DNA of 41,023 nt from Planctomycetota bacterium (GTDB taxonomy: Bacteria > Planctomycetota > Phycisphaerae > Phycisphaerales > SM1A02), in NCBI GenBank assembly GCA_024230295.1, contig JAAERN010000124.1, forward strand, positions 1 through 41,023, given 5' to 3'. Below the pieces are notes generated by a model. The model was not told the origin of the DNA, did not search any database, and worked only from the letters and a program-made list of their open reading frames with translations. The translations under genes were made by a program, and so were the position numbers. Within the stretch, counting starts at the first letter, position 1. Each line of letters starts with the position of its first letter. Below are positions 9,423 to 33,166 of this stretch, piece by piece.

Positions 9423-11789
9423 TCACAGGCACGGACCGAAGTTACCGATGACCATCAGGAGGTCATCGATATTCACCTGGCCGTTGTCGTCGACGTCGCC
9501 GTCGCAGTCACCGGTGCAAGTGAAGTTGCCAATCACCGACAGGAGGTCATCGATGTTGACTTCGCCATTGCCGTCGTCATCACCCGGGCACGGGTCTTTG
9601 ATGACGTCGATCTCGCCGAGGACGGTGCCGTAGTTCTCTACGGTCTCGTACCAGACGGTGCGAGTACCCGTGTTGAACGTGGCGCCAGCTTCGATGACGA
9701 GGTGCTTGGCATAAATGGTTTCTTCACCGTCGGCATTGTCGTAGTTGTCTACGACACTGACGGTGCTGCCCGACTCGATGATGAGTTGGCCGAGTGGGAA
9801 GTGACCATCAATCGTGCGATCAATGCCGTCGGTGCTGCTTCCGACATCGGTGCTCATCGCCTCGATGCTTTGTGTGGAAGCAATACCAGTCATGGCGAGT
9901 GTGGATTCGTCCATCACATATCGATTGTGATAGTCGATGGCGACGTCGAAGTTGCCACCCACAGCGAGCTGCCAATTGGCATGCGCCATAATGAGTTCGG
10001 CACCTGCACCAGCGATGTAATCGCCACTGATACGGAGTCCGTCACCCTCAACTGGATCACCGCCACCTGACAACGGTCCAGTATCGACGTCGCCGACGAT
10101 CGTGCCGTTGTTGGTGAGGTTGCCGAGGATGTAGAGCGGTCCACGGTTGACGGACACGAGGCCGTCGTTGACGAGGTTGCCCGAGAGCATGGTCTCGTCG
10201 TTGCACTGAATCGTACCGACCGAGCCGTTGGCCAAGTCAGTGACAAACGTGCCAGCGGTGCTCATGTAACTCTGGTTGTCCATCGAATCTGCCGCGACAA
10301 CAGCATTGCCGACCGTGGTCATGGATCCGAAGTTGGACAGGCTTCCCGTTGCGACCAACGATCCACCTGACATGACAAGCGTTGCACCAGCTGCGCTGGC
10401 GATTGGTGTCTGGAACTCGACACCAGCACCACTTCGCACGAATGTGGTGCCATTGGCATTGACGGATGTGCCATCCGCGATGACACCAGTGCCACTGAAC
10501 CCACTGTTCACATCAGCGACAGTAGAGCCACCCGAGCCGGTCACGACGGCGCCATTGGCGAGCGTGATTGTTCCAGCCTGGTTCATTCCACCTTCGACAA
10601 CATTCATATACAGGCCCTTGCCCATGAAGTTGACATCGGTTTCGGCGTTGAAGTAGGCGGCCTCACCCTCGATCGTGTCACCGTTGTCGGCAGCAAAGAT
10701 CGCTTCGGCAGCGGTATCAGAGATGAGACCACTGTTGAGGTTGACGTAAGGAGTGACTTCGCAGGCATCGAGCTCGCCGTTGCCGTTGCCGTCGCCACCA
10801 TCGGCGATGTCGCACGAATCGGGGCGACCGTTGCTGTCGCAGTCGTCGGCGGTGCCGTCGGCGATGTCACAACTGTCGGGTGTGCCATTGCCATTGCAAT
10901 CCTCACCCATGTCGCAGACATCCATGATGCCGTCACCGTTGCAGTCGGCGGCGCCGTCGGCGATGTCACACTCGTCCGGTACGCCGTTTTCGTCGCAGTC
11001 TTCAGATGTGCCGTCGATGATGTCGTCGGGGTCATTGATGCCGTTTTCGTTGCAGTCGAGGAACTCGCATGCATCGAGGATGCCATTGCCATCGCTGTCG
11101 CCACCATTTGCGAAGTCACAACGGTCAGTGACGTCGTTTCCGTCACAGTCGCCGTCCATGACTTCGTCATACGAGATGAAGATGTCATCGGTGTGCTGCC
11201 ATACGATCTCGTTGGCGTCACGTCCCTGGAAGAGGGCCGTCATATTGATCGTTGAGTCTGCTCCGGTGACCGTGAGTCGGGCAACTAAGACGCCATTGAC
11301 ATCGGTGCAGTCCACATTCTCGATGGTTTCCGAGACACCCTGTGGCTCGGTCGGAATGATGAACCACGTACCGTTGTCCGTGCTGATATCGCCACCAGCC
11401 TCAAAGTCAGTGAAATCGATGCCGATGTTCTGCAACTCGTTGTTGGTCATGCTGAGATAGCCGATGGTGACGAAGGAGTCGAACTCCATCGACGGCTGCA
11501 TGTCCCAGAACCCATCGTTGTTTTCGACCGATGTGGCGCCAGCGAACGTGTTTTGATAAAAAGTGCCGGTCGTCGAAATGATTTTTGGGGAACTTGAGTT
11601 CCCTGCAACCGCATCGAGACGGTTGTCTGCGTCCAGCACAGCAATCACATCGATTGTGTAGTTGAATCCGCCGGTGTCCACCATGTTGGTGCCGACGAGC
11701 CGATAATCAAGCCCCTGCATTCCAGCCAGTGCGGTGCCTGCGCAGACCATCGCACCAGCTGCAGCGGCAGCGTTTGAAAGTGTTCTCAT
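9423..11789 (-). CDS. Large secreted protein with thrombospondin-3-like Ca-binding repeats and EF-hand (dockerin-like) C-terminus
   Basis: The 788-residue product starts with a signal peptide ('MRTLSNAAAAAGAMV...TALAG', cleavage near residue 22). Residues ~25-210 form an unassigned beta-rich domain. Residues ~213-343 are 8-9 Asp/Asn/Cys repeats of the form 'DCNGNGTPDSCDIADG', as in thrombospondin type 3 Ca-binding repeats. Residues ~350-730 are Gly/Ser/Thr/Asn-rich with short repeated strands ('GSLVATGSLSNFGSM', 'GNLTNNGTIVGDV'), resembling a beta-helix or adhesin passenger. The end (about 735-788) has two EF-hand loops, 'GNGEVNIDDLLSVIGNF' and 'DNGQVNIDDLLMVIGNF', with a Cys pair between them. 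It is probably a calcium-stabilised surface or extracellular protein. Minus-strand AGGAG at 11799-11803 lies 9 bases from the ATG and fixes the start. It is probably monocistronic. Function unknown. Confidence 0.85.
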   Translation of the reverse strand: MRTLSNAAAAAGAMVCAGTALAGMQGLDYRLVGTNMVDTGGFNYTIDVIAVLDADNRLDAVAGNSSSPKIISTTGTFYQNTFAGATSVENNDGFWDMQPSMEFDSFVTIGYLSMTNNELQNIGIDFTDFEAGGDISTDNGTWFIIPTEPQGVSETIENVDCTDVNGVLVARLTVTGADSTINMTALFQGRDANEIVWQHTDDIFISYDEVMDGDCDGNDVTDRCDFANGGDSDGNGILDACEFLDCNENGINDPDDIIDGTSEDCDENGVPDECDIADGAADCNGDGIMDVCDMGEDCNGNGTPDSCDIADGTADDCDSNGRPDSCDIADGGDGNGNGELDACEVTPYVNLNSGLISDTAAEAIFAADNGDTIEGEAAYFNAETDVNFMGKGLYMNVVEGGMNQAGTITLANGAVVTGSGGSTVADVNSGFSGTGVIADGTSVNANGTTFVRSGAGVEFQTPIASAAGATLVMSGGSLVATGSLSNFGSMTTVGNAVVAADSMDNQSYMSTAGTFVTDLANGSVGTIQCNDETMLSGNLVNDGLVSVNRGPLYILGNLTNNGTIVGDVDTGPLSGGGDPVEGDGLRISGDYIAGAGAELIMAHANWQLAVGGNFDVAIDYHNRYVMDESTLAMTGIASTQSIEAMSTDVGSSTDGIDRTIDGHFPLGQLIIESGSTVSVVDNYDNADGEETIYAKHLVIEAGATFNTGTRTVWYETVENYGTVLGEIDVIKDPCPGDDDGNGEVNIDDLLSVIGNFTCTGDCDGDVDDNGQVNIDDLLMVIGNFGPCL
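10758..11153 (-). repeat. DNA encoding tandem Asp/Cys calcium-binding repeats
   Basis: This in-gene stretch encodes successive units of about 14-20 residues around the motif 'DC(D/N)xNGxPDxCDIADG' and is therefore repetitive at DNA level (recurring GCCGTCGGCGATGTCACA-like segments on the plus strand). The units differ in length and sequence, as expected of a protein repeat, not of CRISPR spacers. Confidence 0.8.
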
Positions 11790-25494: not shown

Positions 25495-27231
25495 TCAGAC
25501 TCGGAAAATGGCGCCCATCTTTCGGCCCATCAGGACCGACGCGCCAACGAGCGTGACGGCAAGCAGCGCCATGGCCCAAACGCCCATCGCGCTGGCGATG
25601 CCGGGACCATCGCCAAGACGTTCAAAGAGAACATAGATCGCCTTGGTAATCGGGTAATCACTCTCTCGCTGGGCGAGGATCAACGAGTCGCTGACCTCTA
25701 GCATGGCGAAGGAGAATGCGAGCAAGCCACCAGCGATGAGATTCGCGGTGATAAGCGGAATAACGACCGTTCGGATCGCTCTCGTCCGCGAGGCCCCCAG
25801 ATTGAGCGCAGCTTCTTCGAGTTCACCGCTGGTCTGTTCGAGGCCCGCAACAGTTGATCGAACGACATAGGGCAGCCGGCGCACCGCATAGGCGATGACC
25901 AGCAGCAGGACCGGATTCGGGTCTGCACCAACGACCGAGATCACACCCTCAAGTGGATCACCCTTGCCAAATGGCCAGCGGAGCGTCATCGCGACGTAGC
26001 CGAAGGCCATGACAAGGCCCGGAACTGCCAGCGGCAGCATGGCGAGCGCATCGACGAGACCTCGGCCCCTCACCTTCACCCGGACGATCAGATAACCAAT
26101 CGCCAGACCGATGATCAGGTCGGCACCGACTGCGAGAGACGAATACAGAAGGCTGTTTCGGATCGAACCGCTGGCAAGCGAGTGTGAAAGCGCTGTGTCG
26201 TAATTGTGCATCGTCCACTGCGTCGGGAGTACGCTGTCGTACCACGCTCCCTCGACAGAGAGTGATGCAAGCACGACGCTGATATGCGGCATGACTGCTG
26301 CGAGCGTGACACCACCGAACAGGCAAATCGCTGCGATGCCTCCGAGCGGTCCGAGCCGCTTTGGAACTGAGCGAATTGAGGCTTTGGCATACATGGTGCT
26401 CGAGCGGCCACCGAGGAACACCTTGCCGATCAAGTAGGCCGCTGCCGCCACGATGAGCAGAACCGCTGTCAGGGCATAGGGCTGCGTCGAGCCCTCCATT
26501 TCCTTGATGCCATTGAAGATTTGAACGGGCGTGACCTGCTGATAGTCGAACATCAGCGGCGTTCCAAGTTCGGTAAACGACCAGATGAAGACGATCGTGC
26601 CGCCGGCAAAGAGCCCCGGCCTGATGAGTGGCAGCACAATCTGCCTTAGTCGCCGCCACGCCGATGCGCCAAGCCCCGAAGCAGCCTCTTCGAGGGCCGG
26701 GTCAAGATTCGCCAGGGCCGCGGCTGCATTCAAGTAAATGATGGGATACAGATGCAGAGCCTCGATTAGTACGATGGCCCAAAAGCCACCTTGGCCGATG
26801 AAATCAACTCCATGATCGGTCAGCCCGAGTGAGATGAGCAGTTCGCTGATGGCTCCGTGCCGCCCGAGCAGATGGTGTAGCCCGATCGCGCCGACGAATG
26901 GCGGCAGGATGAGCGGTACGAGAATGACCGCGTTGAAAGCGGTCTTGCCTGGGAAGTCACACTTGACCGAGACGAGTGCGAGGGGAATCGAGATGATGAT
27001 GGCGGCCGTCGTCGTGCAGACGGCAATTCCCAGTGCGTTGAGCAGCCCGATTCGGGTTGAGGGATCGCGCAGCACTTCGAGCACGTGGTGCAGCGTAAAG
27101 CCGCCGCCCTTCGACTCGAAGCCGACCGCGACCGTGAGCCAGATCGGATAGATCAGGAAAACGGCAAAGCCGGCGAGGACGAGAGCAAGCAGGAGATAGG
27201 AGCCAAGCCGGGCGCGCCGCATGCCGGGCAT
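25495..27231 (-). CDS. ABC transporter permease, two-domain, iron(III)/FbpB type
   Basis: The 578-residue product has about 12 transmembrane helices and two binding-protein-dependent transport domains in one chain. Each has an EAA loop: 'LEEAASGLGASAWRRLRQIV' (about 180-200) and 'LEEAALNLGASRTRAIRTVV' (about 475-495). A duplicated permease of this size fits the FbpB/AfuB Fe(III) family; thiamine and 2-aminoethylphosphonate permeases share the layout. Neither an ATPase nor a periplasmic binding protein gene is adjacent, which is unusual. It is 43 bases downstream of the first protease-like gene's stop, so co-transcription is possible but not clear. Confidence 0.85.
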   Translation of the reverse strand: MPGMRRARLGSYLLLALVLAGFAVFLIYPIWLTVAVGFESKGGGFTLHHVLEVLRDPSTRIGLLNALGIAVCTTTAAIIISIPLALVSVKCDFPGKTAFNAVILVPLILPPFVGAIGLHHLLGRHGAISELLISLGLTDHGVDFIGQGGFWAIVLIEALHLYPIIYLNAAAALANLDPALEEAASGLGASAWRRLRQIVLPLIRPGLFAGGTIVFIWSFTELGTPLMFDYQQVTPVQIFNGIKEMEGSTQPYALTAVLLIVAAAAYLIGKVFLGGRSSTMYAKASIRSVPKRLGPLGGIAAICLFGGVTLAAVMPHISVVLASLSVEGAWYDSVLPTQWTMHNYDTALSHSLASGSIRNSLLYSSLAVGADLIIGLAIGYLIVRVKVRGRGLVDALAMLPLAVPGLVMAFGYVAMTLRWPFGKGDPLEGVISVVGADPNPVLLLVIAYAVRRLPYVVRSTVAGLEQTSGELEEAALNLGASRTRAIRTVVIPLITANLIAGGLLAFSFAMLEVSDSLILAQRESDYPITKAIYVLFERLGDGPGIASAMGVWAMALLAVTLVGASVLMGRKMGAIFRV

Positions 27232-27274: not shown

Positions 27275-28822
27275 CTACGCCCCCCAGCGGGCGATGAGCA
27301 GCAAGAGATCGGTTAGGTCGAGCACGCCGTCTTGGTTGAGATCGGCGGCACAGTCGGTGCATGCTGACCAAGAGGTCAGCAGCGACAGCAGATCTTCGAT
27401 GCCGACGACACCGTTTTCATCAAGATCGGCGTCGACCACCTCGCCCGTGGTGTACCAGGCCACCGCGACATCGACGTCGCTTCCGCTGGCATCAGCCCGC
27501 TCAAGCCGCAGGACATAGTGGCCTGCAGCGAGACCCGTGACATATAGGTGCTCCACCGGATCGATCTGGCTCTCGCTGCGGACGTTGCCGCTGGTGAACA
27601 CCTCAATGCCGGCATCGCCGGTGAGCGGTTGGGGTTCGCCTTCAAGTACGCGAAGCAACTCAAGATTGAGGTCGGCGAGTGACCATGAATTGAACGTGGA
27701 GGACACTTCTCGGTTCCATGCTGCGCTGGCGACGAACATGTCGGTTGATCCGAGTGCATTGAAAGACCACTCGGCCTCGCTGCCTGGAGCGAGCGTTTCT
27801 CTCGACCACCCGGCGGCAGCGGCGGCGCCGGCGGTTTGCATACCAGCGGTCAGAATCACATGGGCGCGATTGACATCGAGATGCCCGGCCCCAACGATCG
27901 CGTCGAGTGGCCCGGCTGTGATGCCGCGGTTCGTTCCGGTTTCGGGTGCTCCGTTGGACCAGATTCTGTCATTGTCATCTCCAGGGCCGACGTGATTCGC
28001 GGACGCCATCAGGATCGCCTTGATGACGCTCGGTTGCTCGCCATCGTCGGGCAAGTCGTCATCTCCGCGAACCTCGCCGATCAGCATCGCTGCTGCCGCT
28101 GAAACCGGTGACGTGGAGTAGCTGGTTGTGACCTCGGGGCCACACAGGTCCGGTCGCTGACGACCTGCGCCGTCTTGCCCAGCGGGGACGGCGCCGTGAC
28201 TGTGATCGCTGTTGCGGCAGCCCACAGCAATGACATTGAAGCAATTTGCGAGCAGCGGCATTTGCTCCGAGCCGTTATTGAGTCCGACGCACACCACCGG
28301 CTTGGTTGCGTGCGAATCAACCATCCAGTCAATACGCCGGCAAATTTCGGTGTTGTATGAATCAGAGCCCGCATCGCCGGCCCACGAGTGGTTCCAGACC
28401 CTGACGGCCCCCGAGACTTCGGGCTGGGAAGAACTGTTGCCGGTCTTGAGGCAGTCATTGCCAATGAATCCATTGACCTCGTAACACTGCACCTGCAGAA
28501 TTTCAGGAGCCATGCCCGAGTCGTGCCCACACAATCGAATCCCGACAGAGTGCGCGTGACTGGACTTCCCCGACGCTCCGGATCTGAGCGTGATGAGTTG
28601 GCCGTCGAATTCTGGATCGCAGGCCCAAGGGGAGCATTCGTCGAGGGCGTAGTTTCCATCACTTCCACTCTCGACCATGGCGATGATGACACCGTCGCCG
28701 CGTGGGACGTTGTCTTCACCAAGTCGCTCGACAAGATCTGTCCAGCCGCAGACGCTTCGATAGTCGGCAGCGCAGGTTGCGGCGGTCCCCAGAATGCAAA
28801 GGCACGCTGTAATAGGTTTCAT
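27275..28822 (-). CDS. Secreted subtilisin-like (S8) protein with EF-hand C-terminal module
   Basis: The 515-residue product has a signal peptide (about 1-19). Residues ~43-250 align to S8 peptidases: 'GVIIAMVESGSDG' where the catalytic Asp is Glu51, 'SSHAHSVGIRLCG' with His89, oxyanion Asn182 in 'GLNNG', 'NVIAVG', and 'TTSYSTSPVSAAAAML' with Ser234 in place of GTSMSTP. No I9-like propeptide is visible. Residues ~335-460 form a pre-peptidase-like beta domain ('LAAGHYVLRLERADASGSDV'). The C-terminus has two EF loops, 'DLDENGVVGIEDLLSLLTSW' and 'DLNQDGVLDLTDLLLLIARW', with a Cys-x2-Cys between. Coupled to the next gene by a 4-base overlap. Activity with Glu for Asp is uncertain. Confidence 0.82.
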   Translation of the reverse strand: MKPITACLCILGTAATCAADYRSVCGWTDLVERLGEDNVPRGDGVIIAMVESGSDGNYALDECSPWACDPEFDGQLITLRSGASGKSSHAHSVGIRLCGHDSGMAPEILQVQCYEVNGFIGNDCLKTGNSSSQPEVSGAVRVWNHSWAGDAGSDSYNTEICRRIDWMVDSHATKPVVCVGLNNGSEQMPLLANCFNVIAVGCRNSDHSHGAVPAGQDGAGRQRPDLCGPEVTTSYSTSPVSAAAAMLIGEVRGDDDLPDDGEQPSVIKAILMASANHVGPGDDNDRIWSNGAPETGTNRGITAGPLDAIVGAGHLDVNRAHVILTAGMQTAGAAAAAGWSRETLAPGSEAEWSFNALGSTDMFVASAAWNREVSSTFNSWSLADLNLELLRVLEGEPQPLTGDAGIEVFTSGNVRSESQIDPVEHLYVTGLAAGHYVLRLERADASGSDVDVAVAWYTTGEVVDADLDENGVVGIEDLLSLLTSWSACTDCAADLNQDGVLDLTDLLLLIARWGA

Positions 28823-30360
28823 GACCAGAACGACAGTAACAAGAGCAAATCATTGACGTCAACGAGGCCGTCGGCGTTGAGGTCTTCTGGGCAGTCGGCG
28901 CAGTCACCCCAGGCAGCGAGCATGAGGAGGAGATCATCAACACTGATTGTTCCATCGCCGTTGATATCGCCGGGAATACCACCGGTCTCTGTCTCTGACC
29001 ACCAAGCTACGGCGATGTCCACGTCGCCGCCGCTGCCATCCACACGTTCGGCGCGAAGAAGATAGGTACCGGGTGCCAGGTCATTCACATTGATGAGTTC
29101 GACGTTGTCGACTTCGCTTGCGCTGGCGACATTGCCACTGCCGAAACTGACGTCATCGCCCACGAGTGGCAAGACATCTGCGCCGTCAACCACGAAGAGT
29201 TCGATATTGACATCAGCCAAACTGTATGAGGTGAAGTTTCCTGAAACTTCACGGTTCCATGCCGCGACAATAGAGAGGTTTGACGAGCCGCCTGGAAAGC
29301 TGAATTGCCACCAGCCCTCTTCGTCGAGATCCAGTGTGGCCAGATCCCAGCCGTGCGTGGTGGCGGCGCCGGCGGTGGCGGAACTACTGCCGCCCTCCGT
29401 TCGCCCACCCGACATGACCTGATGAGCGCGATCTACATTGACGTGGCCGGATCCGACGCTTTCATCGAGCGGTCGGTTTGTCAGTCCTCGCTCGGGACCA
29501 TCCTGCGGGGCGTTGTTGGACCACTCGGCTCCCTGAGCGCCGTTGTGGTCTGCCGATGCCATCAGAATCGCTCGAAGCGACTCGGCGGCTTCTCCCTCGG
29601 TGGGAAGATCGGCGTCGTCACGGACCATCTCAGTGAGCATGGCTGCGGCCGCCGAGATAATGGGTGTAGCTTCGCTTGTCGTGTATCGCGGCCCACAGAT
29701 GTCGGGACGCATTCGTCCTTCGCCTTCGTATGGAGCCGGGATGTCCCCGGCAGAATGATCTGCATCGCGGCGACCCACGGCGACGGTGTTGAATCCGTAA
29801 CTCAGCAGTGGAACTTGTTCGGTGCCGTTATTGATACCGACACTGACGAAGACATCGTCCCGGTCGACGACCCAGTCCATCCTTCGGAGTGCCTCATGAT
29901 CGTAGGTGAGGTTCCCAAAAGACCCTACCCATGAGTGGCTCCATACTTTCAGGCCGCCCATCGAGTCGAGCGGTGGCATCGAAGTTCCGATGTTGAGATA
30001 GCCAGCTTGCAACCAATTGTTGACTTCGAAGCAGTTGATGAACCACACACCCGAGGCCATGCTCGTGTCGTTTCCGTAATACAACTTGCCGACTGAGGTG
30101 GCGTGTGTTGAGCTATTTGTGGAACCACCGGATCGGCGAATCAGGTACTTGCCGTCGAACTCGGGGTTGGATGCATCGGGCATGTAATACCCATTTTCGG
30201 TGGGGGCCTCGACCTGACCGACAATGACGTCTACTCCGGTCGGAACGTTTTCCAGCCCAATACGAGCTACAAGGTCATCCCAGCCACACTGTTCGCGATA
30301 GTCGCCCATGACGCCGCCCGTGGCTGTGGCCACGATCACTGCGGTGATAGACCATTTCAT
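28819..30360 (-). CDS. Secreted subtilisin-like (S8) protein with EF-hand C-terminal module (paralogue)
   Basis: The 513-residue product is a diverged paralogue of the neighbouring protein, sharing order and most motifs. These are a signal peptide (about 1-19), 'CGWDDLVARIGLENVP', 'DVIVGQVEAPTENG' with Glu51 at the Asp position, 'SSTHATSVGKLYYG' with His86, Asn177 in 'GINNGTEQVPLL', 'NTVAVG', and 'TTSEATPIISAAAAML' with Ser229. The C-terminal beta domain and EF module ('GDINGDGTISVDDLLLMLAA', 'DLNADGLVDVNDLLLLLSFW') match the tag on other exported proteins here. The ATG at 30360 is used because it begins the signal peptide; AGGAG lies 11 bases upstream. Its stop overlaps the next gene by 4 bases. 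Confidence 0.82.
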   Translation of the reverse strand: MKWSITAVIVATATGGVMGDYREQCGWDDLVARIGLENVPTGVDVIVGQVEAPTENGYYMPDASNPEFDGKYLIRRSGGSTNSSTHATSVGKLYYGNDTSMASGVWFINCFEVNNWLQAGYLNIGTSMPPLDSMGGLKVWSHSWVGSFGNLTYDHEALRRMDWVVDRDDVFVSVGINNGTEQVPLLSYGFNTVAVGRRDADHSAGDIPAPYEGEGRMRPDICGPRYTTSEATPIISAAAAMLTEMVRDDADLPTEGEAAESLRAILMASADHNGAQGAEWSNNAPQDGPERGLTNRPLDESVGSGHVNVDRAHQVMSGGRTEGGSSSATAGAATTHGWDLATLDLDEEGWWQFSFPGGSSNLSIVAAWNREVSGNFTSYSLADVNIELFVVDGADVLPLVGDDVSFGSGNVASASEVDNVELINVNDLAPGTYLLRAERVDGSGGDVDIAVAWWSETETGGIPGDINGDGTISVDDLLLMLAAWGDCADCPEDLNADGLVDVNDLLLLLSFWS

Positions 30361-30464
30361 CGTCTGATGCGCTCCTCTACGCCCAACATCCACGTGTAGC
30401 GAACACCCGAGCGTACCACCAGCCGTGTCGCTTGCAAGGCTCCTTTATCGATACATAGGGCGAT

Positions 30465-31270: not shown

Positions 31271-33166
31271 GTGAACGACAGGTATTCGGTGGCTAGCCTG
31301 CTGGTCTTGGTTGTCGTTGGGGGCATGGCGGTCAGGGCTCAGTCTGATCAGACTCAGGTTCCTACGACGGCCGAGGATTTCTATCAGCCAGGGAGCCAAC
31401 CGCTTCCAGCCGGGCTGGAGCCATTCTCGGAATCTTGGTCCTGCAGCAGTTGTCATAACTTCACCGACGACGACAACCCGGATGCTGTTACGTCACCGTT
31501 TTTCAACTGGGCCGGCACCATGATGGCGCAATCAGCCAGAGATCCGGTCTGGCAGGCGGCGGTGATTATCGCAAGCCAAGACGCTGCAGGCGCCGGCGAG
31601 TACTGCATTCGATGCCACTCGCCCACAGGCTGGGCTGGCGGCCGGAGTACGTCCGGTGATCTCGACGACCTATGGGACCCAGATGATTTCGATGGCGTGA
31701 ACTGTGCCTTCTGTCACCGACTGGTTGATCCGATCTCGTCGAATGAGAATCCAGCTCAGGACTCGGATATTCTTCAAGCGCTCATCGATGATGGGACGTA
31801 TCCCGATCCGGCCCACCCCGGTAATGGACGATTCATCTTCGACCCGGAGGACGATCGCCGCGGGCCGCTGGATGATGTTGGCATCAACATGCACGGAGCG
31901 GCGCAAATTGTGCATTCGCCGCATCACTCCGAGGCATCGATCTGCGCATCGTGCCACGATTTGGGGAACCCAGTTTTCAGCTGGAACGAGGCGACCGAGT
32001 CGTTTGAACTCAACGACATGGATGCAGCGCATCCGACCCAGAACACCTACCACATGTTTCCCGAACAACGCACGTACAGCGAGTGGCTCAACAGTGAGTT
32101 TGCTTCGAGCGGTGTCGCATTTCCCGATGGTCGATTTGGTGGTGACGGGCATCCCGATGGCGTGATGAAGTCCTGCCAGGATTGCCACATGCCCAAGACA
32201 CACGGAGCGAATTGCAGTTTCTGGTATCTCCCGGAGATAGGTTCACGTGACGACATTGATGTTCACAGCTTTGCCGGGGGCAACACTTGGGTGGTCGGTG
32301 CTGTCCACGATCTCTGGGATTCGACGTACACGGGTTTGACCGATGAGATCGTGAACATGTCCATGCAGCGGACGGCGGACATGCTTGCCGCAGCGAGCGA
32401 TATGGATGTCAGCCAAAACGGCAGTCAACTTGATATTCGCGTGACGAATTGGTCGGGCCACAAACTTCCCACCGGCATGCCGGAGGGGCGACGCATGTGG
32501 TTGAACATCGAGTTCCACGACGTGTCCGGTGCCATAATCGAAGAGCTGGGCGATTACAACTGGATCGATGCGAGTCTGGATGAAGCATCGACACACGTAT
32601 GGGAGGCGCGGCTTGGTGTTTCGCAAACGATCGCCGACGCGACCGGTGTCGATACAGGCGAGTCGTATCACTTGGTGCTGTGCGATCACGTAGTCAAGGA
32701 CAACCGGATTCCACCCGTCGGATTCACTAACGCCGCCTTCGAGGCCATCCATGCCGCGCCGGTTGGCGCGACGTACGTGGACGGCCAACACTGGTCGGAT
32801 ACTGCTTTCGAGATTCCAGCGGGCGCTGTGGATGCCGTCGTCACGATGTACTTCCAGACGACAACGCGGGACATGATGGAATTCCTTCGTGACGCCAACG
32901 TCACCGATGACCGTGGTCAAATCGCGTGGGATGCCTATGTGGCCCGAGGTATGTCCCCGCCGGTTGTCATGGACGCGACCACAATCGAGTTAGACGAGGT
33001 CGCGGTGGTCCCTGGCGATGTGAATGGCGATGGCGTGGTGACGATCGACGACTTGCTTGAATTGCTCTCACAATGGGGCCCGTGCACGGGCTGCTCGGCT
33101 GATCTCAACGGCGATGGGGAGGTGTCGGTCGATGATCTTCTGGAGTTGCTCAGCCACATAACTTGA
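31271..33166 (+). CDS. Secreted five-haem cytochrome c-type protein with EF-hand C-terminal module
   Basis: The 631-residue product starts at GTG with a purine-rich AGAGGGAG upstream, and has a signal peptide ('SVASLLVLVVVGGMAVRAQ'). Five CxxCH haem-binding motifs lie at Cys58-His62, Cys112-His116, Cys145-His149, Cys225-His229 and Cys302-His306. A few extra His residues ('HSPHHSEAS') may be distal ligands. Residues ~385-560 form a haem-free beta domain. The C-terminus has two EF loops 'GDVNGDGVVTIDDLLELL' and 'DLNGDGEVSVDDLLELL' with a Cys pair between. It is probably an extracytoplasmic electron-transfer or oxidoreductase protein; the partner and substrate are unknown. No cytochrome maturation gene is nearby. 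Confidence 0.85.
   Translation: MNDRYSVASLLVLVVVGGMAVRAQSDQTQVPTTAEDFYQPGSQPLPAGLEPFSESWSCSSCHNFTDDDNPDAVTSPFFNWAGTMMAQSARDPVWQAAVIIASQDAAGAGEYCIRCHSPTGWAGGRSTSGDLDDLWDPDDFDGVNCAFCHRLVDPISSNENPAQDSDILQALIDDGTYPDPAHPGNGRFIFDPEDDRRGPLDDVGINMHGAAQIVHSPHHSEASICASCHDLGNPVFSWNEATESFELNDMDAAHPTQNTYHMFPEQRTYSEWLNSEFASSGVAFPDGRFGGDGHPDGVMKSCQDCHMPKTHGANCSFWYLPEIGSRDDIDVHSFAGGNTWVVGAVHDLWDSTYTGLTDEIVNMSMQRTADMLAAASDMDVSQNGSQLDIRVTNWSGHKLPTGMPEGRRMWLNIEFHDVSGAIIEELGDYNWIDASLDEASTHVWEARLGVSQTIADATGVDTGESYHLVLCDHVVKDNRIPPVGFTNAAFEAIHAAPVGATYVDGQHWSDTAFEIPAGAVDAVVTMYFQTTTRDMMEFLRDANVTDDRGQIAWDAYVARGMSPPVVMDATTIELDEVAVVPGDVNGDGVVTIDDLLELLSQWGPCTGCSADLNGDGEVSVDDLLELLSHIT

Follow-up and report, generated by a model that had tools for sequence, protein, structure and literature searches.

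Tandem subtilase-like proteins with a Glu-His-Ser triad in a planctomycete genome

Can a subtilase do its ordinary chemistry with a glutamate where the catalytic aspartate should stand? The question is raised by two adjacent genes, here called A and B, in a 41,023-nucleotide stretch of a Planctomycetota bacterium genome (contig JAAERN010000124.1 of assembly GCA_024230295.1; the window below). Their products are 48% identical and share a common plan, with a signal-like N-terminus leading at once into a subtilase domain, which is followed by a beta-domain and a dockerin-like tail. A preliminary description of the sequence had aligned both proteins to S8 peptidases and had read the acid site as VEA in A and VES in B and the serine motif as TTS in both; it placed the active site at Glu51, His86, Asn177 and Ser229 in A and at Glu51, His89, Asn182 and Ser234 in B. 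We checked all of these codons, including AAT for Asn182 of B, and the residues and motifs are as described. From family alignments and a predicted structure, we consider ordinary subtilase chemistry with Glu replacing Asp to be the best reading of A and B and a fairly likely one, and the two probably act as proteases of a minority type that is already known.

Conservation of the triad across the family

Two homologue sets carry this reading. Using the catalytic domain of A, we searched 397 genomes of the same class and found matches in 81, including the genome of the window. The alignment holds 92 of the 100 matches listed, window pair included, with the 8 weakest left out. His86 and Ser229 are present in all 92 rows, and position 51 is Glu in 91 and Asp in one. 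The sole Asp member (L089) reads VVDP at this site and has HGQ after its His. The second set came from a scan of named genome records by two patterns, one of which contained Glu. It yielded 79 loci, mostly in records titled as Planctomycetota or as uncultured metagenome-assembled genomes (MAGs); Peristeroidobacter soli (L185) and a Chromatiales MAG (L190) are also represented. In the corresponding 83-row alignment, Ser is invariant in all rows, and Glu and His are present at all 81 covering sites (L184 and L191 have no coverage there). Of these 83 rows, 16 also occur in the class-search set, including the window pair; together the sets comprise 159 distinct rows, of which 156 are Glu-His-Ser, 1 is Asp-His-Ser and 2 are uncovered. 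An alignment of 77 sequences has 18 invariant columns, and Glu, His and Ser are three of them. Since 156 of 157 covering homologues have Glu-His-Ser and the remaining one Asp-His-Ser, the constancy of the three residues argues for a working triad over a pseudoenzyme. Residues at the acid position are thus far from random, in keeping with the preliminary view that Glu is constrained rather than decaying, and the suggestion of a distinct subtilase subgroup is likewise supported.

Kinship with S8 peptidases is real, even if weak when single sequences are compared. Against Pfam PF00082, A scores 14.2 bits where the cut-off is 21.8, and B is unlisted at E <= 1. Among 77 family members, 57 match PF00082 at E <= 0.01. 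The same Pfam model finds 5 places over the cut-off in the genome of the window, none of them within the window. Besides the pair, this genome has 73 matches to A, all in the C-terminal part from residue 383 onward. With hhalign, the family profile aligned to 16 Asp-type S8 proteins at E 1.1e-15, with Glu51 on the Asp column and a gap right before the TTS of A. Compared with solved structures, the family profile matched SubHal (E 7.2e-11) and KP-43 (E 1e-10). The NCBIfam model of the anti-phage peptidase IteS reaches E <= 0.01 for 21 of the 77 members, with 2.7e-5 as the best value, which we take as a sign of general S8 kinship.

We predicted the structure of A residues 20-455 with AlphaFold2 from 77 sequences, namely 75 locus sequences (L153 was excluded from 76) and both window proteins. 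The model has a predicted local distance difference test (pLDDT) score of 96.3 and a predicted template modelling score (pTM) of 0.95. Among solved structures, with both domains aligned, it comes closest to SubHal (5fax; Z 35.5, Foldseek E 5.9e-20) and KP-43 (1wmd; Z 35.4, Foldseek E 8.1e-20); against subtilisin BPN' Z is 23.6. By this model, A has a subtilisin-like fold (clan SB) plus a KP-43-like beta-domain. Glu51, residue 32 of the model, closes the first core strand. For the oxyanion residue, the KP-43 alignment favours Asn177, while MAFFT with mixed S8 sequences placed Asn178 there; by the former, Asn177 is the likelier. We also observed Asp instead of Asn in this loop (GDG for GNG) in 11 of the 92 class-search rows (for example L099, L102, L104-L106, L110 and L113-L115).

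The family departs from most subtilases in two further respects. In subtilisin, the loop before the catalytic Ser lines the leaving-group side. Here that loop is missing: the nucleophile follows the APG-type proline at 5 residues in the 11 of 12 representatives that have this proline, with 6 in the remaining one, whereas 54 sampled S8 domains show 19-55. Likewise, P219 and S229 are 10 residues apart in 80/83 and 81/92 rows of the two family alignments. The second absence is that of a propeptide, which secreted subtilases usually have (PMC3937732). A signal-like hydrophobic 12-mer is found in 76 of 79 members, and from its end to Glu there is a median of 34 residues; in 9 of the 79 a start more than 110 residues upstream of Glu is possible. 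This survey of N-termini bears out for the family what had been proposed for the pair.

Glutamate at the acid site also occurs elsewhere in S8. In 85 control S8 rows from the class and the phylum, the acid column is Asp in 69, Glu in 11, Ser in 3, Thr in 1 and a gap in 1. The control is partly biased, as 20 of the domains were chosen for a late Pfam match start (Asp 10, Glu 6, Ser 3, Thr 1); it also contains duplicates (L277 equals L004, and L297 equals L264), and L264/L297 were counted as Asp although they look like Glu by eye. The best PF00082 match per genome has Asp in 28 of 29 genomes. The Ser found at the Asp position belongs to L270, L273 and L275. A quick tree built from 96 S8-type rows, with weak deep branches, requires 8 changes in the acid column. 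For this tree we coded L264 as Glu and L219 and L220 as Cys by hand and omitted L277, L297, L005, one L278 fragment and L218. The Asp-to-Glu switch may be recurrent, because Glu occupies several separate places in the tree: the family with its neighbours L253, L265, L224 and L267; L004; L264 with L269; L298 with L300; and L271/272/274. Beyond the family, a phylum-wide search of 392 genomes gave matches in 31 at E <= 1e-15, and a viral contig search found no relatives in viral contigs. Some weaker relatives (L219-L223, in G028, G075, G049, G035 and G042) keep His and Ser and have, by eye, an apparent Cys at the acid site (AAVCRS/GTICPS).

Relation to known subtilases and weighing of the readings

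A 2007 abstract by Siezen, Renckens and Boekhorst reportedly describes a Glu-His-Ser subset of subtilases. SprP (PA1242) of Pseudomonas aeruginosa has been assigned to this 'E-H-S family'; it has a predicted E262/H299/S499 triad and a protease activity that is lost in S499A (PMC3937732). Such subtilases, with an active member, were thus already in print and had been overlooked in the preliminary description. Our reading of A and B draws on this precedent by analogy. As far as descriptions can be compared, SprP resembles A and B in having Glu-His-Ser for Asp-His-Ser, a signal sequence and an S8-type domain (PMC3937732). It differs in a domain of unknown function, described between its signal and S8 domain, that A and B do not have, and in the spacing from His to Ser, which is 200 residues in SprP and 143 in A. 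By triad residues alone, the family falls in the E-H-S group (156/157 covering rows); the classical D-H-S type has Asp first in the triad, where both A and B have Glu51. Our literature search, which had most subscription journals outside its reach, found no description of this planctomycete subfamily. E-H-S subtilases are already known; the possible novelty is this subfamily, which occurs mostly in Planctomycetota.

The KP-43/SubHal subtilases have a propeptide, and their triad acid is Asp. A and B resemble them over the whole length of the fold, with a catalytic and a C-terminal beta-domain, but have Glu51 and no evident propeptide; in the profile alignment KP-43 and SubHal also keep the loop before Ser that A and B lack. 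Another subtilase of the same genome, L004 (G000:C7:47412-48173), shares with A and B a Glu at the triad position (VEPS) and the HAT motif. It differs in keeping GTS and a long loop before Ser (31 residues from KPD to Ser), and the quick tree places it among Asp-type proteins.

In sedolisins (S53), Glu stands at the position of the subtilisin His. The sedolisin comparison made in the preliminary description therefore fails by position: the family has His at the His position in 92/92 rows and its Glu at the Asp position, and we rejected a sedolisin reading. What the two have in common is limited to a fold like that of subtilisin and a triad acid that is not Asp; the names D-H-S and ED-S (the latter for sedolisins) are those used in PMC9549277.

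Several points weigh against the reading as an ordinary subtilase in which Glu takes over from Asp. The window copies fall short of the Pfam model, and absence of the loop before Ser could hamper ordinary substrate binding. The apparent Cys in L219 and L220 suggests that the clan tolerates loss of the acid outside the family proper. Moreover, the named-record set was partly selected for Glu by its pattern, as the class-search set was not, and the weakest class-search matches lie outside the alignment. One rival reading is a non-catalytic pseudoprotease whose fold is kept for binding a peptide or a surface ligand, with Glu as the mark of lost chemistry. The changed acid, the missing loop and the missing propeptide fit this idea, as do the seemingly acid-free L219 and L220 and the Ser or Thr at the site in 4 of 85 sampled S8 domains. 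However, the three residues occur jointly in all covering rows but one, which has Asp for Glu, and a published Glu-His-Ser subtilase is active (PMC3937732). Since His and Ser are as invariant as Glu, the non-catalytic option offered in the preliminary description is not favoured, and we hold it to be unlikely.

The short stretch before the nucleophile (5 residues against 19-55) and the dockerin-like tails would also suit a serine enzyme other than a general protease, with an open leaving-group side and a role in acyl transfer or in trimming specific surface proteins. The remainder of the site nevertheless looks like that of an ordinary subtilase in the predicted model, and such an enzyme seems to us quite improbable. 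That another acid completes the triad is least credible. The candidate raised earlier, Asp55 of B, is four residues from Glu51, but its column is Asp in 7 of 92 rows and we rejected it. The other columns with Asp or Glu in more than 80% of these rows are 162, 220, 299 and 418. Column 162 sits in the helix preceding the oxyanion strand and column 220 is the KPD/E motif, also present in Asp-type S8 proteins; both are unlike substitutes. The lack of another conserved acid near Glu51 counts in favour of Glu itself as the triad acid.

On the favoured reading, A and B would be diverged duplicates of a subtilase that is exported and probably held at the surface, with Glu taking the place of Asp. Ser229 (Ser234 in B) would attack the peptide bond with His86 (His89) as general base, Glu51 would orient and charge the His, and the NNG loop would stabilise the oxyanion. 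The simplest guess for the substrate is an extracellular protein or peptide. We infer catalysis and the Glu-His contact, and surface anchoring would be through the tail. Asp32 of subtilisin is a textbook residue, and a natural family fixed for Glu, alongside Asp-type relatives in the same genomes, would offer a test of how far the triad tolerates a longer acid. The missing propeptide and loop would similarly offer a test of how far folding and substrate binding need them. The interest lies in the combination of a fixed Glu with both absences, in proteins whose window copies escape Pfam annotation.

Gene layout, permease and tails

The genes and sites are collected in the table. A is counted from the ATG at 30360; its longest open reading frame (ORF) begins with GTG at 30393. 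The four-base overlap reported for the pair was confirmed as ATGA on the minus strand.

Table. Features of the locus, in window coordinates (all on the minus strand)
Feature	Position	Strand	Basis or remark
Gene A, exported Glu-His-Ser subtilase-like protein (predicted), 513 amino acids (aa)	28819..30360	-	ORF, model, fold match
A residues 1-19, signal-like N-terminus directly before catalytic domain	30304..30360	-	sequence, family statistics
A ~residues 20-325, subtilisin-fold catalytic domain	29386..30303	-	predicted model; borders approximate
A Glu51, Asp position of triad	30208..30210	-	codon GAG; aligned to Asp
A His86	30103..30105	-	codon CAC; invariant 92/92
A Asn177-Asn178, putative oxyanion loop (NNG)	29827..29832	-	Asn177 codon AAT
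A Ser229, putative nucleophile	29674..29676	-	codon AGC; invariant 92/92 and 83/83
A ~residues 336-455, KP-43-like C-terminal beta-domain	28996..29355	-	profile and model; borders approximate
A ~residues 462-513, dockerin-like tail	28822..28977	-	Dockerin_1 21.1 bits (cut-off 22.9); NF041540 20.0 (cut-off 29)
ATGA overlap, stop of A/start of B	28819..28822	-	four shared bases
Gene B, diverged tandem copy, 515 aa, Glu51/His89/Ser234	27275..28822	-	ORF, codons
B Glu51	28670..28672	-	codon GAG
B His89	28556..28558	-	codon CAC
B Ser234	28121..28123	-	codon AGC
B ~residues 463-515, dockerin-like tail	27278..27436	-	Dockerin_1 15.2 bits; NF041540 24.5 (cut-off 29)
ABC transporter permease, two BPD_transp_1 stretches	25495..27231	-	43 bases after B; possibly co-transcribed

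The duplication that gave A and B is local, judging from the closest relatives. Tandem copies are also found in the two nearest (L116 and L117), with a single copy in L118. A careful 18-row tree unites the A copies (89/91) and joins window B to the B copy of L117 (100/98), with the B copy of L116 next to the A copies (84/86). Neither copy has lost Glu, His or Ser in the window genome, L116 or L117.

Downstream of the pair, and possibly co-transcribed with it, is an ATP-binding cassette (ABC) transporter permease. It resembles phosphonate, molybdate, sulfate and polyamine permeases and passes none of the 25 cut-offs shown; PF13343 binding proteins are encoded over cut-off at two places elsewhere in the genome. 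Crude gene calling failed to pick up the family gene at 22 of 80 loci, and we replaced it by tblastn. A permease homologue was then found in 52 of 79 related loci; in 49 cases it lies on the same strand and starts at most 400 bases from the family gene (median 49). In another 19 loci, each with at least 900 bases downstream, there was none, and 8 further loci were too short. Among genomes listed with both genes, the two are adjacent in 10 of 11 within one bacterial family, f1 (G167 is the exception), and in 0 of 18 outside it, 16 of which have the genes on different contigs, so that linkage there is not strictly excluded. Adjacency is thus a trait of one bacterial family, and we rejected the idea that the permease has a role in all members. 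Part of the gene order may be plain inheritance, because NuoD homologues occur in 24 of 79 loci. It is a long shot that the proteins are propeptide-independent Glu-His-Ser subtilases whose open leaving-group side serves to transfer acyl groups or to trim surface-anchored proteins instead of bulk proteolysis, with the product imported, in one planctomycete family, by the adjacent ABC permease. In G155, G161, G167, G182 and G197, the permease match is split near query residue 425 by a short gap within one open frame, as if by a small insert. L131, in a record titled Chitinophaga pinensis, also has a family member beside the permease; that record may be a mislabelled MAG.

The tails vary across the family. 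By a simple pattern, 72 of 83 tails in the named-record set are dockerin-like, 8 are others (some plainly dockerin-like) and 3 are cut off. Patterns applied to the 92 class-search rows, cut-off ends included, gave 40 dockerin-like, 23 PEP-CTERM-like and 29 neither. As A and B score below the cut-off of the GC-type dockerin model NF041540 (see table), we label their tails as dockerin-like only. We considered, and did not retain, a role of the enzyme in sorting dockerin-tailed proteins. A cohesin-dockerin peptidase complex has been proposed in freshwater Planctomycetes, with M12B and M14 rather than S8 peptidases (PMC6461901). Elsewhere in the window, a 788-aa protein (9423-11789, minus strand) that has no Pfam match at E <= 0.01 ends in a stretch resembling the dockerin-like tail of A. 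Additionally, a 631-aa protein (31271-33166, plus strand) is rich in CxxCH-like motifs and ends in a dockerin tail that passes the Pfam cut-off (29.5 bits).

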